Shown: positions 8,977-35,657 of the stretch, piece after piece | How the letters are laid out: each line of letters begins with the position of its first letter | Position numbering within the stretch: position 1 is the stretch's first letter | NCBI GenBank assembly: GCA_027624715.1 | Contig: JAQBTV010000002.1 | Coordinates: 1-64,000 of the forward strand | Reading direction: 5' to 3' | Length of the DNA stretch: 64,000 bases | Source: Pseudomonadota bacterium | Lineage (GTDB): Bacteria; Pseudomonadota; Gammaproteobacteria; Burkholderiales; Eutrophovitaceae | Position numbers and translations under genes: made by a program | Notes under the pieces: generated by a model | What the model was told of the DNA's origin: nothing | The model's database searches: none | Seen by the model: only the letters and a program-made list of their open reading frames with translations

Positions 8977-10101
8977 TTATGTACCTTGGACGCTAACGAC
9001 AACATCTAAATTCTCACCATGACGATGAATTGTAAGTGTAATTTCTTCCCCAACTTTAAAATTATCCATTAAGCCATAATATTTGCTGATTGACTCAACT
9101 GGTATCCCCTGGACCTTGGTAATTATATCTCCAGGGACAATAACACCATCCGATCTTAGTCTGGCAGCCTCAAGCCCGGCCTTTGCAGCCGAAGATCCTG
9201 GAAAAACTCTGAGAATGGCCGCTCCCTCAATGCCCATGGTTTCGGTAATGCGCTTATTGAGGTCAGGATCAAGCTGTATACCGATGCTTGGCGGCGTGTA
9301 TTTTTTGTGTTGTATTAACTGAGGGACAACTCGATTGATCGTATCAACTGGAACTGCAAATCCAATACCAGCAGAAGCTCCTGATGGGCTATAGATAGCC
9401 GTGTTGACTCCGATTAATCGTCCATAAGAATCAAGCAAGGGCCCTCCTGAGTTTCCAGGATTAATTGCGGCATCCGTTTGAATTAGGTGTTCAATATTCT
9501 GCCCGCTTTCCGTACTGAGGCTGCGATCAAGAGCAGAGACTATTCCGGTTGTTAGCGTCCAATCCAAGCCAAATGGATTACCTATCGCATATACTTTTTG
9601 TCCTACTTTAAGGTTCTCACTTTCCCCAATAGGGATCGGGGGCGGTGATTGGGTCGTGACTATAATTTTGAGAACCGCAAGATCGTGCGATGGACTAACG
9701 CCGACTAAGCTGGCTTTATAGTCTCTTCCATCCTCTAGCCTGATAGTAGCTTCGCTACTACCCTTGATAACATGAAAATTAGTGATCACATGTCCTTGTG
9801 AATCCCATATTAATCCGGAGCCTGTTCCGCTTGGAACTGAAAATATATTGCGTGTCCAATAATCTCTAACGCGATGTTTTGTACTGATAAAAACCACTGA
9901 TTTTTTAGCGTGTTCAAAAATAGATATGGTTGCGTTTTCTTCATCAGTTAAGGGGCCTCTAGGAGTTACCGCTCGTGGCTCTGTTTTATTTGGATCAATC
10001 GAGGCATTAAGGTAGACCAACCCTCCTGTAATGCAGGTAATAATCAATACCATAAGTATCGAGACCCGTGATCCAGATCTCTTTTGACCGAGTTTAAACA
10101 T
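8977..10101 (-). CDS. HtrA-type S1C serine protease with one PDZ domain (DegS-like)
   Basis: A 374-residue periplasmic protease anchored by an N-terminal membrane segment (residues about 13-31). The trypsin-like domain has the full triad: His110 in VITNFHVIKG, Asp140 in SHDLAVLKI and Ser218 in NPGNSGGPL. A single C-terminal PDZ domain spans about 265-370. A single PDZ and a membrane anchor are the DegS layout, rather than the two-PDZ soluble DegP layout. DegS-type enzymes trigger the envelope-stress sigma-E response by cutting an anti-sigma factor; whether that applies here is inference. The degenerate relative at 32233-33207 contrasts with it. Confidence 0.9.
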   Translation of the reverse strand: MFKLGQKRSGSRVSILMVLIITCITGGLVYLNASIDPNKTEPRAVTPRGPLTDEENATISIFEHAKKSVVFISTKHRVRDYWTRNIFSVPSGTGSGLIWDSQGHVITNFHVIKGSSEATIRLEDGRDYKASLVGVSPSHDLAVLKIIVTTQSPPPIPIGESENLKVGQKVYAIGNPFGLDWTLTTGIVSALDRSLSTESGQNIEHLIQTDAAINPGNSGGPLLDSYGRLIGVNTAIYSPSGASAGIGFAVPVDTINRVVPQLIQHKKYTPPSIGIQLDPDLNKRITETMGIEGAAILRVFPGSSAAKAGLEAARLRSDGVIVPGDIITKVQGIPVESISKYYGLMDNFKVGEEITLTIHRHGENLDVVVSVQGT

Positions 10102-28100: not shown

Positions 28101-28390
28101 TAAAGCGTTTCTTTATGCCGGGCAATTACCTTAAAGCTATGAATGAAGTTGCTTATGTGAATAATGACGGTAACATCAAGCGGATTGACCGTCTTGTTGA
28201 GTTTGATGATGAACTTTGGATTCTTGATTACAAAATTTCATCGGATCAAAGTGTGCACCCTAACCACGATATTCAAAGTCAATATAAAAAGCAGTTGACT
28301 CAATATCGCGATGACTTACTGCAGATTAAAAAGATGAAGCCGATTCGTATAGGGGTAGTTTTGAGTAGTGGTGAGCTGGTTGAGTTTTAA
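25115..28390 (+). CDS. AddA-like UvrD-family helicase-nuclease
   Basis: A 1091-residue SF1 helicase with a C-terminal nuclease. Walker A is EACAGSGKTWLL (about 31), motif II VDEFQDTNPIQW (about 396), motif III GDPKQSIYRFRR (about 430), motif V TIHGAKGLEAPIVF (about 781) and motif VI YVAVTRARQ (about 855). The nuclease core is RIDRLVEFDDELWILDYK (about 1022-1040). ATG at 25115 overlaps addB by 34 bp and has CAGGG upstream; a GTG at 25145 in a GTGA overlap is an alternative. It forms the motor of an AddAB-type recombination complex. Its end overlaps a convergent gene by 3 bp. Confidence 0.9.
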   Translation: MPKGFFLATRVNPRLSNKAFVLDPRNDVIIEACAGSGKTWLLTSRIIRLLLSGTKSSEILAITFTRKAAQEMRSRLTDWLRTLTISDDEQVREFLIERGVSLDDVDACIPRARKLYREYLSTPSGVNVNTFHGWFLQILQLAPWAAQSGRGRELSDSDGLILRDALELFFKNISFNRDVSDALDYLYGIYELQNTSEILERFVASRLDWWASLESSEIRETVLAWRSNQNKDPLDDFLCDQTFLSNFVEFKILIKKNKLPSEMEALEVLESIEAFDNPEGWFVCLQKLSKKRGLLQAMISRMGVADAESYVRVSADLKALVDQLKAVRVEWFAAQLDRAVKIVGDCLLKTFQSVKSSSNIIDFADLEWNVRSLLLDDDQADFVLHRLDSRYTHLLVDEFQDTNPIQWTILKSWIDASNQAGTAIKLFFVGDPKQSIYRFRRAEPRLFGVAEKLIVSDLGGRKVIQNQSYRNAPGITELVNTCFETRINNFVPQQSVYTELSSELAVLPLVEAVGPVDACDVSRWRNPLLSSRLEQMDDRYLQEGLMIGEKIHLLILSKAIDDEGGCRSIRFSDIMILLRRRTHLKSYEDALRTSGIPFFSQRNGSLLESLEIQSVISLLQFLLTPHVDHYLIHVLKSPIFSFDDAALKTFIKRGDQSIWSILVDGQGCEQSNSLAEFDSAVRCLSSWIKNIDTVPAHDLLDMIYGESDLINRYAGHALSHLAERVRSNLIAFLEYSLDFSAGRYPSLERFLEKIRLVRAEEGVGPGEGLQSASLNAVRIMTIHGAKGLEAPIVFLADADAAVGVDNWDILVDWTPGEKETNHFSVYSSKIQRGEARSELFARHEALNRVEDTNLLYVAVTRARQAFFVSGVAQPRENPNSWYSLLRDAIRQCSQNKGLDVVAEDIKLREKINSDSSSKDIIESDAVAEQFSLGTRKERCTNSDIEFGILVHKILETITADVDLISKEATQQLCGASSPNFDAAWDVSLRIVQAPQLKRFFMPGNYLKAMNEVAYVNNDGNIKRIDRLVEFDDELWILDYKISSDQSVHPNHDIQSQYKKQLTQYRDDLLQIKKMKPIRIGVVLSSGELVEF

Positions 28391-28767
28391 ATGGCGGCTT
28401 CAGCATCGATTATTTCTTTAGCATTTTTAAATGAGTCAATAGCTGCAGGTACTCCGCCATAAATAGCCACTTGTAATAAAATTTCGCGAATCTCTGCTGT
28501 CGTCACTCCGTTCCTAAGCGCGCCGCGAATATGCAACTTAAATTCATTGGGGCGATTGAGTATGGCTAACATCGCGATATTCAGCATGCTTCTGGTTTTT
28601 TTGGGCAGTTCCTCACGACCCCAAACAGCTCCCCAACAGTATTCACTCACAAGTCTTTGCATGGGTTCATTGAATTCGTTTGCATTTGCAAGCGATTTTT
28701 CCACGTATTCCGATCCTAAAACATCTTTTCTGATTTTCAGGCCTTTTTGGTATAAGTCATCATTCAT
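28387..28767 (-). CDS. Carboxymuconolactone decarboxylase family protein (PcaC-like)
   Basis: A 126-residue AhpD-fold protein with the PcaC-type pattern EYCWGAVWGREELPKKTRSM and a following LHIRGALRNGVTTAEIREIL block. PcaC decarboxylates 4-carboxymuconolactone in protocatechuate degradation, but many relatives serve other decarboxylations and no other pca gene is present. The start overlaps the end of the 3-hydroxyisobutyrate dehydrogenase-like gene by 8 bp, implying translational coupling in a catabolic operon. Its stop overlaps the convergent addA stop. Confidence 0.88.
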   Translation of the reverse strand: MNDDLYQKGLKIRKDVLGSEYVEKSLANANEFNEPMQRLVSEYCWGAVWGREELPKKTRSMLNIAMLAILNRPNEFKLHIRGALRNGVTTAEIREILLQVAIYGGVPAAIDSFKNAKEIIDAEAAI

Positions 28768-29680
28768 TATTTTCTCCTAGTGATTTTTTTCTGACTGCCA
28801 CTTGTGCCCAATTCTCAACTAAACGGCAAAGAGAGGTGAAATCTGAATCGTCGCCAAACTCGGCTTTTGTGGCAGCTAACATTTGTCGAACAGTTGAACC
28901 TAGAAACATCGGAATGCCCATCGCTTCTGCCTCATCAATACATAGGCTTATATCCTTGTACGAGAGTCCTGTTGAAAAGCCAAAGTCAAATGTTCCAGTA
29001 AGGACTGATTTAGGAAACTTATGCTCAGTCGCTGTGTTTTTACCAGTACTGGCATTAATAATTTCAAGCATCTGCTCTGGATCTAGACCCGCTTTAGTTC
29101 CCATAACCATGGCTTCGGACGTGATCGCAATTGCTGCGCATGATAGTAGGTTGTTTGCAAGCTTCATGGACTGGGCTTGGCCTGCACTTTCGCCGACGTG
29201 ATACGGTCTCCCGAAAATGTTTAAGAGATTCTGCTGTTCTTTGAATAGGATTTTTGGACACGCAACTATGACCGATAGTGTCCCTTCACGCGCACCTTTT
29301 ACGCCACCACTAATTGGACAATCAATGTAAGCTATTTTTTGTTTTTTAACTAGATCATTAATGAACTTTGCAGCTCTCGCTCCAATGGTTGAAAAGTCGA
29401 TGATCGTTTTAACTTGATCGCCATGTATCAAGCCTTTTTCTGAAGTCACTACCGCCTTAACAATATCTGGGTTTGGGAGACTAAGCATAATGACCTCCGC
29501 TCGGTGGCCCACATCGAGAGTAGATTTAGCACGTAGTCCGCCAAGGGCGACCGCGGCGTCCAATGCATCGTGGTTGGTGTCATAAATAATAATTTTTCTG
29601 CCAGACTCGATTAATCGTCGCAACATGGGTTGTCCCATCTTGCCTAAACCAATGAATCCTAGAGTTTGGTCTTTTGCCAT
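28760..29680 (-). CDS. 3-hydroxyisobutyrate dehydrogenase-family (beta-hydroxyacid) dehydrogenase
   Basis: A 306-residue NAD(P)-dependent beta-hydroxyacid dehydrogenase. The nucleotide motif is LGFIGLGKMGQPM at the start. The substrate motif DCPISGGVKGAREGTL and the catalytic Lys in QSMKLANNLLS are intact. The cofactor strand ends IIYDTN, where an Asp suggests NAD+. Candidates include 3-hydroxyisobutyrate, tartronate semialdehyde or 2-(hydroxymethyl)glutarate-type substrates. It overlaps the CMD-like gene downstream and lies 49 bp from the SDR gene upstream, all on one strand. Confidence 0.9.
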   Translation of the reverse strand: MAKDQTLGFIGLGKMGQPMLRRLIESGRKIIIYDTNHDALDAAVALGGLRAKSTLDVGHRAEVIMLSLPNPDIVKAVVTSEKGLIHGDQVKTIIDFSTIGARAAKFINDLVKKQKIAYIDCPISGGVKGAREGTLSVIVACPKILFKEQQNLLNIFGRPYHVGESAGQAQSMKLANNLLSCAAIAITSEAMVMGTKAGLDPEQMLEIINASTGKNTATEHKFPKSVLTGTFDFGFSTGLSYKDISLCIDEAEAMGIPMFLGSTVRQMLAATKAEFGDDSDFTSLCRLVENWAQVAVRKKSLGENNE

Positions 29681-30517: not shown

Positions 30518-32206
30518 CTATCTTATAAGGCGTCCTGGTAGATTTCCAGTTTGTTCGTCTTGATGAATAATTTCTGTTCCAGATACAAATGTGTGACGGT
30601 AACCTCGCGCTCTTTGAATTAAGCGTTTTCCACCGGCAGGTAAATCATAGACAATCTCAGTATCTAATAACGATAACTGTTCATAATCAATAACATTAAG
30701 GTCTGCTTTGTATCCAGCTTGAATCAACCCTCGATCGAGAAGTCCATAGCCACTTGCGCTAATGGACGTATGTTTCTTTACTAAAAATTCTAAAGGAATT
30801 GTTGGTCCTCGTTTCCTGTCACGACTCCAGTGCGACAGCAAATAGGTTGGCGCACCCTCATCGCACACAGTACACACATGTGCTCCTCCATCACCGAGAC
30901 CCATGATAGTGCCTTCGTCAAGCAACATTTCTCTTATTACCTCAAGATCACCATCAAAATAGTTTTCGAAAGTATGCGCCAGTAGCCCTTTGCCTTCGTT
31001 TTGAAGCATTCTGTCTAGGGCCACCTCGAAAGGACTTACGCTTTTCTTCCGAGCAATTTCGCAGATGTTATCTTCTGGTGAGGGCTCGTAATCAAACCCT
31101 TTATTCATTAAGAACGTCCTGGGCAACCATTCTTTAATCCGTCTTGTATGTTCGTCGTTAGGCAATTGGTGGATTAAATTGTGACGCAACTGTGCGTCAT
31201 TTTTTATTCTTGAAAGACGTTCTAAAGGTGTGAGTGATGACAATTGTATCCATTTCGGATGCGTCGAAAACGGATTAATTGTGGTTTCGAGCCCCATAAT
31301 GAGGACGATGGGTCGACAGCCTACTTGACCGGTGACGTTCAGACCTTGCGCTCGGGCTTGATGGATTTGATCTCGAGTTTGTCGCCAAAGATCGGGAGAA
31401 TTATTAGTCTGGAGAAGTAGGATAGACAGAGGACGACCTGACACTTCGCTGACCATGCGCATGATTTCAAATTCACCTGGACCAAAGTCGGAGTTAACCT
31501 CAATAATCCCTTTGTCAGCACGTTTCATAGCAAGGGCTAATCCAAGGAGTTCAGCATGTTTTGCCGATAGGCTCGGCGTATTTTTTCCGTCACGACTCAA
31601 GTGTTTGGTTGTTCTGGACGTGGTAAATCCAATAGCTCCAGCGGTTAATGATTCCTCGAGCATCAAGCCCATAGACTCTATTTCTTCATCAGTGGGAATT
31701 GCATGGTGATCCGCTCCTCTTTCACCCATCACATAAAATCGCAGGGGGCCGTGCGGTACTTGAGCACCGATATCTATAGCTTTGGGGGACGAGTCAAGAA
31801 CATCGAGGTATTGCGGAAAGGATTCCCAATTAAAATCCACACCTTCTGATAACACGGATCCAGGTATGTCTTCGACTCCTTCCATTAGATTGATCAGGTA
31901 GGGAACATCGTTTTTTCTAACTGGAGCGAATCCAACCCCACAATTTCCAAACACAGCAGTAGTGACGCCGTGAAACGTCGAAGGGGTTAAATACGGATCC
32001 CAGGTGACTTGCCCATCATAGTGTGTGTGTACATCAACGAATCCTGGGGTGACAAGGAGGCCATCCGCATCGACAATTCGTGCCGCTATGCCTAGATTAT
32101 TGCCAACGCCATTTATGAGTCCATCTTTAATAGAGATGTCTCCTACGAATCGATCTTGTCCTGATCCATCGATAATTATTCCGTTTTTGATTAAAAGGTC
32201 ATTCAT
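30518..32206 (-). CDS. N-acyl-D-amino-acid deacylase family amidohydrolase
   Basis: A 562-residue amidohydrolase-superfamily enzyme. The N-terminal beta-sandwich (LIKNGIIIDGSGQDRFVGDI) is followed by the metal motif VDVHTHYDGQVTWD, and later GNCGVGFAP (Cys ligand of D-aminoacylases) and GLGDGGAHV with the catalytic Asp. D-aminoacylases hydrolyse N-acyl-D-amino acids, but the large related group includes dihydroorotase- and hydantoinase-like enzymes. As first gene of the CMD/HIBADH/SDR run it probably begins a catabolic pathway for an amide or a cyclic compound. A 26-bp gap separates it from the pseudoprotease gene upstream on the same strand. Confidence 0.87.
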   Translation of the reverse strand: MNDLLIKNGIIIDGSGQDRFVGDISIKDGLINGVGNNLGIAARIVDADGLLVTPGFVDVHTHYDGQVTWDPYLTPSTFHGVTTAVFGNCGVGFAPVRKNDVPYLINLMEGVEDIPGSVLSEGVDFNWESFPQYLDVLDSSPKAIDIGAQVPHGPLRFYVMGERGADHHAIPTDEEIESMGLMLEESLTAGAIGFTTSRTTKHLSRDGKNTPSLSAKHAELLGLALAMKRADKGIIEVNSDFGPGEFEIMRMVSEVSGRPLSILLLQTNNSPDLWRQTRDQIHQARAQGLNVTGQVGCRPIVLIMGLETTINPFSTHPKWIQLSSLTPLERLSRIKNDAQLRHNLIHQLPNDEHTRRIKEWLPRTFLMNKGFDYEPSPEDNICEIARKKSVSPFEVALDRMLQNEGKGLLAHTFENYFDGDLEVIREMLLDEGTIMGLGDGGAHVCTVCDEGAPTYLLSHWSRDRKRGPTIPLEFLVKKHTSISASGYGLLDRGLIQAGYKADLNVIDYEQLSLLDTEIVYDLPAGGKRLIQRARGYRHTFVSGTEIIHQDEQTGNLPGRLIR

Positions 32207-32232: not shown

Positions 32233-33207
32233 TTAATGAGTTTTTGGTTTAAGAAGAAAATCATTTCTATCTACCGAATTAATTATAAATTGTAAGTAGT
32301 TTCCTTCTCGGTTTATATTTAGTGGCACTGAAACCCCTGCGGATCCAAGATTCCAAACAGATCGAAAGAAATTAGCGAGAGTAGACGTCTTGTCCTCGCC
32401 AATAGATATGATTTGATCTCCTTGTAAGATACCAGCGAGTTCCGCAGGGCCGTAACGAGCTAAGCTACTCACTATTAATTTCCCACCAATTTCCACTGTG
32501 TACATGCCGATCCAAGGCCTGGCAGGGGTTAATGGTCGTCCGAATTCTAATAGGTCACTTAGGATTGGTTCTAAAAGGTGGGTGGGTATAGCGAGATTGC
32601 CTTGTTGGCTTTGTCCTTCAAAAACTTCTTGAAGAAACAGTGAGCCTATTCCTATGACATGTCCTCGTCCATTAAATATGGCGGCGCCTCCCCATTGCGG
32701 ATGGGGTGGCGAGGTGTAGATTGCTTCATCTAAAACATATTCCCAGTACCCAGCGAATTCGTCGACACGGACAATTTTTGAATGAAGGGCATGCTCAAGA
32801 CCTCCGTGACTGACAAAGTAAACATCATCGGATGGCTTCATCAGATTACTTGTCTCGAGGTTTGAGGGCTCAATATGTAACTTTCCAAGAGCCTGTATCA
32901 AACCAAGTCCAGTCGCTTGATCATAAGCTACAACGTGTCCTGGGACACTTTGGTTAAGGTTCGTTGTTATCCAGACTGATTCGGCTTCCGTCAGAAGGTA
33001 GCCTACTGTAAGGATTAACCCATGTTCGTTAATCAAGACGCCACTGCCGATGCGTTCTGTTCCAAGAATGTCGGCCGTGAATGCTTCGGCCGATATCGCC
33101 GTTCGAACCTTTACAACAGAATTCACTGCTCTACTGAGGTTGAACGTCAGATTTTTTGAACTAGGCCTCAAAGATTGAGGGAATGTCCACTCGTCGGTAT
33201 TTTGCAT
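32233..33207 (-). CDS. HtrA-fold pseudoprotease with PDZ domain (catalytic triad lost)
   Basis: A 324-residue protein aligning along its length with trypsin-like S1C domain plus one PDZ (about 220-310), but with no signal peptide. All three catalytic positions are changed: the His site reads LTVGYLL (Tyr70), the Asp site DQATGLGLIQ (Gly100) and the Ser site PHPQWGGAAI (Trp172). The flanking HtrA framework (RIGSGVLINEHGLILT and DQIISIG) is intact, so this is not random decay. I recall a conserved family of such proteins in proteobacteria, often annotated as serine protease. A non-proteolytic binding or scaffold role is inferred. It heads the minus-strand catabolic run. Confidence 0.85.
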   Translation of the reverse strand: MQNTDEWTFPQSLRPSSKNLTFNLSRAVNSVVKVRTAISAEAFTADILGTERIGSGVLINEHGLILTVGYLLTEAESVWITTNLNQSVPGHVVAYDQATGLGLIQALGKLHIEPSNLETSNLMKPSDDVYFVSHGGLEHALHSKIVRVDEFAGYWEYVLDEAIYTSPPHPQWGGAAIFNGRGHVIGIGSLFLQEVFEGQSQQGNLAIPTHLLEPILSDLLEFGRPLTPARPWIGMYTVEIGGKLIVSSLARYGPAELAGILQGDQIISIGEDKTSTLANFFRSVWNLGSAGVSVPLNINREGNYLQFIINSVDRNDFLLKPKTH

Positions 33208-34865: not shown

Positions 34866-35657
34866 TTATATTGAGGCGGTTTGTTCAAGCTCGGCACCTT
34901 GGTCGGATAGAAATTGGCTCTTGATATGACTTTGATCGTATCCGTTAAAGAGATGTCCTAGCAAGCCGCGATCAAGGTCGCTGGTACCCATATACCAATC
35001 TGTGATTGGATAGGTTAAATTCATATTTCTGGCCATCATAATATGTTGGCTGTGGTGCGCGGCGTGGTGTCGACGAATTGTATTCACTAGAGGGCAATTG
35101 CGAACAAACCAATTCTCCTTAACGTGGCAACATAAATGAAAGGTTTCATAGTTTAAGTAATAAAAAGGCGTGGAAAGCATCAGTATATATCCAGCATTCG
35201 GGCTCCACAATTGACCTATCAGGAATGCTGGAGGGACAGTTCCAATCAGGAAAATTAACAGGGCATAAGGTGGAAATAAAACAATGCGCCATTCCCGGTT
35301 TGTATCGTACGTCATTCTTCTTGAGGTGAAATATTGGTGATGCTGATGTACATGTCGGTGAAACACTGGGATTATGGCCCCACCGAACCCCTTGATTGGT
35401 TTATGCATTGCATTTTTATGAATCCACCATTCGTTGAAGTTATAAATGATGACAATGGGTATTATCAATGAAATTTCTAACCAGTTAGGATTTTTAATGT
35501 GCCGCATACAAAAGGCTATGACGAGGAGTCCGGGCGCATATATTGATAGGAGGTGTCCCCAGCCTGTATACCAATTGGCTATATTTTTTTTATACTCGTC
35601 ACGGAATAGACGTTGTTTTTCCGTCATTTCTCCAGAAAATAAATTTTGGTCAGACAT
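34866..35657 (-). CDS. Fatty acid hydroxylase/sterol desaturase superfamily membrane protein
   Basis: A 263-residue integral-membrane di-iron protein. Histidine clusters match the superfamily: HKNAMH, then HRHVHQHH, and RRHHAAHH near the C-terminus, with about four membrane helices (about 33-50, 63-82, 125-150 and 155-175). Members hydroxylate fatty acids, sterols or carotenoids using O2. The substrate cannot be judged; no ceramide, hopanoid or carotenoid gene is nearby. AGGAAG in the leader (minus strand, upstream of 35657) is a good Shine-Dalgarno. The C-terminus lies 64 bp from the foreign patch. Confidence 0.87.
   Translation of the reverse strand: MSDQNLFSGEMTEKQRLFRDEYKKNIANWYTGWGHLLSIYAPGLLVIAFCMRHIKNPNWLEISLIIPIVIIYNFNEWWIHKNAMHKPIKGFGGAIIPVFHRHVHQHHQYFTSRRMTYDTNREWRIVLFPPYALLIFLIGTVPPAFLIGQLWSPNAGYILMLSTPFYYLNYETFHLCCHVKENWFVRNCPLVNTIRRHHAAHHSQHIMMARNMNLTYPITDWYMGTSDLDRGLLGHLFNGYDQSHIKSQFLSDQGAELEQTASI

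Follow-up and report, generated by a model that had tools for sequence, protein, structure and literature searches.

What does a protein built like an HtrA protease do once all three of its catalytic residues have been replaced, and is such a gene a relic or a working one? The question is raised by a gene at positions 32233..33207 (minus strand) of the window, meaning here the whole stretch of 64,000 nucleotides analysed, which forms part of a contig from the Eutrophovitaceae (GenBank JAQBTV010000002.1). Recognised as an open reading frame and by its Pfam Trypsin_2 and PDZ_2 matches, the gene runs from an ATG at 33207 to a stop codon at 32233-32235 and encodes a protein of 324 amino acids, the plus strand of the same interval being dense with stop codons. 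Judging from sequence comparison, its product belongs to a genuine, conserved, and mis-annotated family of pseudoproteases, for which a function in binding is proposed below.

Domain architecture and predicted fold

The chymotrypsin-fold domain (Trypsin_2) occupies residues 54-187 (32647..33048, minus strand; Pfam E 9.8e-14, with a fold match to DegQ and DegS) and is followed by a PDZ domain (PDZ_2) at residues 232-307 (32287..32514, minus strand; Pfam E 1.7e-7), both matches exceeding the curated gathering cut-offs of Pfam. A trypsin-like fold succeeded by a PDZ domain is the domain order of HtrA, DegP, and DegS (S1C). The same window holds a DegS-like gene (8977-10101, minus strand) which the preliminary description had put forward as a normal protease for comparison; with Trypsin_2 and PDZ_2 matches and an intact His-Asp-Ser triad, it can indeed be used as a control, and its Trypsin_2 score of 134 bits compares with 52.7 for the pseudoprotease. 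The NCBIfam equivalog scores of the latter are all far under the respective cut-offs.

An AlphaFold2 model built from 10 sequences is of medium confidence (mean pLDDT 70.8, pTM 0.58) and is poor in the L1, L2, and L3 loops and in segments near 149-154, 162-166, 189-202, and 220-226 in a model numbering that equals the full protein minus one. On the strength of its matches to DegQ, DegS, AlgW, and Mtb HtrA, with E values down to 1e-21 and TM scores of 0.50-0.68 among the matches listed, the modelled fold of the window protein is that of HtrA.

The position of the PDZ carboxylate-binding loop was assigned by alignment to LTPARPWIGMY (residues 226-236; 32500..32532, minus strand). Going by alignment and by general features of HtrA structures, the WIGM of the window protein is taken to be the counterpart of the YIGI loop, which in DegS binds the carboxylate of the peptide. 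Conservation of this loop across the family is moderate overall, with Trp232 and Gly234 being invariant. The C-terminal tail, SVDRNDFLLKPKTH (32236..32277, minus strand), contains an invariant Arg314 and, in the family's cytoplasmic branch, terminates with either His or Gln.

Loss of the catalytic triad

Alignment with HtrAs encoded in this genome and in related ones places the HtrA segment LTN-A-HVV over LTVGYLL, which puts Tyr70 (32998..33000, minus strand) in the catalytic His slot, and TDLAVI over TGLGLI, which puts Gly100 (32908..32910, minus strand) in the catalytic Asp slot. Both sites had been read in this way in the preliminary description, whereas its choice of Trp172 for the Ser site was one residue off. 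Since NPGNSGGPLLDSYGRLIGV lies over HPQWGGAAIFNGRGHVIGI without a gap, the Ser slot corresponds to Gly173 (32689..32691, minus strand) and Trp172 (32692..32694, minus strand) to the preceding Asn194; in the relatives that retain a Ser (WSGAAL, HSGAAL), it stands precisely in the Gly173 column. The reading of Trp172 as the Ser site matches a single gapped phmmer alignment in which Trp172 is set opposite the Ser.

The comparison was extended to 101 intact family members from the Burkholderiales, other Gammaproteobacteria, and the Alphaproteobacteria, with one active HtrA control and the two pieces of a split Neorhizobium galegae copy being kept outside this number. Asked whether the replacements are conserved, as had been suggested beforehand, these members give Tyr70 and Gly100 in 101 of 101, and a Ser slot filled by Gly in 89, Ser in 10, and Ala in 2. 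The His-Asp-Ser triad, the retention of which in homologues had been named as a sign of decay, is absent from all 101 relatives examined. The oxyanion Gly193 of the GNSGG motif is also replaced, the window protein reading QWGG with Gln171 at chymotrypsin position 193, a change that should disturb the oxyanion hole too. Elsewhere in the family this position is usually taken by Q, N, S, H, D, A, M, or F, and a single distant member (L102) has Gly. With the base, the acid, and the nucleophile all lost and a residue other than Gly at position 193, peptide hydrolysis by the serine-protease mechanism would be impossible for the window protein.

The most conserved long block of the protein, DEFAGYWEY...HPQWGGAA (residues 146-178; 32674..32772, minus strand), replaces the L3 and L1 loops of HtrA, and an insert of three residues relative to HtrA precedes L1. 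With conservation computed under redundancy weighting (~25 effective sequences), 46 positions of the family alignment are at least 93% conserved; the 14 residues of the former His loop rank second among 311 stretches of equal length, and the L3 and L1 block ninth among 292.

Distribution and selection

Identity to the window protein is 72-87% within its own genus, 45-52% in several families of the Burkholderiales, and 34-40% in a second, distant group, with a clear gap separating the family from ordinary HtrAs, nearly all of which lie at or below 28%. Searches of GTDB contigs and plasmids add MAGs of the Caulobacteraceae and Granulosicoccaceae together with Azospirillum, Rhizobium, Neorhizobium, Pararhizobium, and Phyllobacterium, and a search of a phage collection returned ordinary DegS-like matches only. 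A family member is carried by 29 of the 299 genomes in a phylum-wide draw, by 15 of the 17 genomes of the window's own GTDB family, and by 116 of 118 in one alphaproteobacterial genus (g332), where genomes are mostly 7-10 Mb and the gene is single-copy and free of inner stops. The GenBank names of the relatives, 'S1C family serine protease' and 'signal protein PDZ', agree with the earlier expectation that the family would be described only as a serine protease. On the Neorhizobium galegae VafX2 plasmid (L141:8001-8905), the annotation divides the pseudoprotease into two overlapping pieces, probably owing to a frameshift.

Omega is given only for the closer pairs, dS being saturated at ~72% identity with the window protein. 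It amounts to 0.119 (dN 0.068, dS 0.57) when the window genome is compared with G004, the nearest congener to carry the gene; for the active DegS-like gene, this pair of genomes gives 0.124. The median for the pseudoprotease within g332 is 0.123 over 527 pairs. The preliminary description had regarded the protein as a conserved pseudoprotease and a dN/dS near 1 as the mark of decay; with a value equal to that of the active paralogue, the invariant Tyr and Gly, and the near-universal presence in g332, conservation is the view that stands. These comparisons strongly support a genuine, selected family of non-proteases.

The gene is not essential, being dispensable in at least one congener: in the closely related G001 it is deleted, with a match to the last 19 codons only (L195:9104-10190), and the upstream LysR gene, the amidohydrolase gene, and DegS are retained. 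The contig of G008 starts inside the amidohydrolase gene and therefore allows no judgement on absence.

Branches of the family and their predicted location

In a tree of 40 family members and seven active HtrAs, all the members are separated from the HtrAs by a branch whose SH-aLRT support is 100%, which suggests that the family is monophyletic relative to the seven active HtrAs sampled, a small set that may hide an active sister. As had been stated at the outset, the window protein has no signal peptide; no hydrophobic N-terminus was found in it or in its branch either, so that the periplasmic or membrane location of HtrAs is not predicted here. In the second branch, at least nine members have a hydrophobic, signal-like N-terminus, and the family is predicted to consist of a cytoplasmic branch and an apparently exported one.

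The members of the second branch (L023, L024, L025, L040-L044, L102, and L103) mostly have N-terminal hydrophobic segments, and several of them have a Ser at the nucleophile position but neither the catalytic His nor the Asp. Both branches occur together in some genomes (G018, G021, and G026).

Gene neighbourhood

Neighbouring genes were called with a codon-usage caller, and those with neither a Pfam nor a GenBank call were named from their sequence by eye. An Amidohydro_3 gene (30518..32206, minus strand) lies 26 bp past the stop of the pseudoprotease gene, and the two are likely to be co-transcribed. The pairing is kept in two genera of the window's own GTDB family (g1 and g4), with the amidohydrolase gene following at ~26-62 bp, and most of these loci have genes for a LysR regulator and a malic enzyme upstream of the pseudoprotease; the linkage to all three is almost wholly limited to that GTDB family. 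Elsewhere, the neighbour is an alpha/beta-hydrolase-like gene (g332), a TrmFO-like gene (a genus of f223), or a LysR gene (part of f236), with sulfatase, thioesterase, epoxide hydrolase, xanthine-dehydrogenase-like, or MFS genes adjoining in single lineages, and DUF992 and glycerate kinase genes, beside pca genes, on Neorhizobium and Rhizobium plasmids. A preference for catabolic operons is possible. The suggestion made in the preliminary description, that the protein acts on the neighbouring catabolic enzymes, finds no support, given that the neighbours change with lineage and the amidohydrolase is nearly confined to one family. A fixed neighbour gene as the partner was considered and rejected, there being no common candidate across lineages.

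Several features of individual loci may be recorded here. In the window, a Core-2/I-branching glycosyltransferase gene (PF02485; 33443-34333, plus strand) stands where most congeners have LysR upstream, a lineage-specific replacement. Genes resembling PcaC (carboxymuconolactone decarboxylase) and 3-hydroxyisobutyrate dehydrogenase lie beside the operon (28387-29680, minus strand) in the window genome only, being absent from this place in the three congeners examined. A 263-residue protein rich in His boxes (34866-35657, minus strand) resembles fatty-acid hydroxylases and desaturases, has no Pfam or NCBIfam match, and is kept beside the malic enzyme in the family. In the Rhizobiaceae (L139, L140, L141, L138, and L122), the pseudoprotease gene comes after the DUF992 gene, the product of which is probably secreted, and faces the glycerate kinase gene, and such loci often adjoin the pca (protocatechuate) operon.

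Comparison with known systems

The window protein shares its fold and its protease-PDZ order with HtrAs of the DegS/DegQ type (MEROPS S1C), at ~20-27% identity, but differs from them in having Tyr-Gly-Gly for His-Asp-Ser, a residue other than Gly at position 193, and neither a signal peptide nor a membrane anchor. Searches of the literature for an earlier account of such a family yielded MamO and PflC only. MamO, a magnetosome-specific pseudoprotease, carries a transporter domain as well as a di-His metal site, and offers a precedent for a binding or scaffold role (PMC4794232). Descent from HtrA, a degenerate triad, a non-Gly residue at position 193, and a bulky Trp in L1 are common to MamO and the window's cytoplasmic branch, whereas the family has neither the transporter domain nor a His that is invariant throughout. 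The NCBIfam model of MamO (NF040961) gave no match at E <= 0.001, the only one being to MamE, which scored 19.4 bits where the cut-off is 800. PflC is likewise derived from HtrA, without a catalytic triad, and serves as a scaffold in the medial disk of the Campylobacter flagellar motor, being periplasmic with two PDZ-like domains and a domain swap (PMC12222027). The window protein, in contrast, has one PDZ domain and no signal peptide, and flagellar genes are absent from its recurrent neighbours. The family is neither MamO nor PflC, and these two precedents establish that reuse of HtrA without cutting does happen. A conserved His-to-Tyr replacement is also described for the pseudoprotease family of bacterial pseudo-orthocaspases (PMC6426788), which have the unrelated caspase fold.

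Proposed function and competing explanations

The preferred reading, to which a probability of roughly 0.55 is given, is that of a cytoplasmic binding protein of HtrA fold in which the PDZ domain would read peptides and the rebuilt cleft would hold a constant partner or ligand. It is supported by the lack of a signal peptide, the HtrA fold of the model, the conserved core of the PDZ loop, and the conserved face of the rebuilt cleft. C-terminal peptides or exposed hydrophobic ones would be the ligands of the PDZ domain, and the cleft (Tyr70, Glu74, Gly100, Phe151, Gly153, Trp155, Glu156, Tyr157, and Asn204) would accommodate one constant partner or ligand, which is probably not the product of a fixed neighbour gene. 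Peptide binding may then switch or recruit the cleft partner, such that the HtrA relay from PDZ through L3 to the active site would be reused for regulation or scaffolding and not for cutting. A wider and distinctly more tentative proposal is that, in a broadly distributed proteobacterial family, the HtrA fold moved to the cytoplasm and had its cleft rebuilt once, into the invariant Tyr70/Gly100 and FAGYWEY site, which would serve the control of metabolism through a ligand-binding or catalytic function that is new.

A conserved pocket is compatible equally well with a new enzyme activity, and a repurposed enzyme, in which the invariant Tyr70, Asp96, Glu74, Glu156, Arg52, and Asn204 would form a new catalytic site acting on a small metabolite, is the main rival. 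The cleft motifs exceed the rest of the protein in conservation, several of the invariant residues are polar or charged, and small-molecule catabolic neighbours (amidohydrolase, esterase, xanthine dehydrogenase family, thioesterase, epoxide hydrolase, and LysR regulators) are frequent, yet their diversity indicates no common substrate and the low-confidence loops of the model are too uncertain to give the geometry of the candidate residues. We know of no trypsin-fold protein with such chemistry, and the explanation is held to be unlikely. Ranked behind it is the idea of a partner that regulates another protease, such as an active HtrA, through mixed oligomers or activation by PDZ contact, in the way MamO serves MamE. 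That carrier genomes also hold active HtrAs would suit this idea, as would the promotion of MamE-dependent proteolysis by MamO (PMC4794232), but the window branch is predicted to be cytoplasmic and the HtrAs periplasmic or membrane-anchored, the gene is not adjacent to an htrA, and G001 still has DegS without it. The exported second branch could be such a partner.

The features common to MamO (degenerate triad, non-Gly 193, and Trp in the L1 loop), along with His169, which never varies in alignment A2 of the cytoplasmic branch (where it is numbered 168), also bring a metal-binding pseudoprotease to mind; without a His invariant across the whole family, and with the MamO and MamE models failing to reach their thresholds, this is improbable. 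An active protease that cuts by means of an unusual catalytic site, for which the retained fold of the model and the Ser kept by 10 of the 101 members might be cited, is more improbable again, seeing that the slot is Gly or Ala in all the others and that base and acid are never present. Least credible is a decaying protease under relaxed selection: the loss of three catalytic residues, the split Neorhizobium galegae copy, and the deletion in G001 might suggest it, but it is refuted for the family by an omega of ~0.12 and the invariant replacements Tyr70 and Gly100, and no matched genome has an inner stop in the gene.

Significance

The public label 'S1C family serine protease' is wrong for the whole pseudoprotease family, and nearly every genome of one alphaproteobacterial genus carries a member mislabelled in this way. 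As far as literature searches show, no HtrA pseudoprotease family was previously known to be widespread, to have a main branch predicted to be cytoplasmic, and to stand apart from magnetosomes and flagella. It opens the question of what job the HtrA scaffold performs without cutting, and does so in hosts amenable to genetics, Azospirillum and Rhizobium among them.
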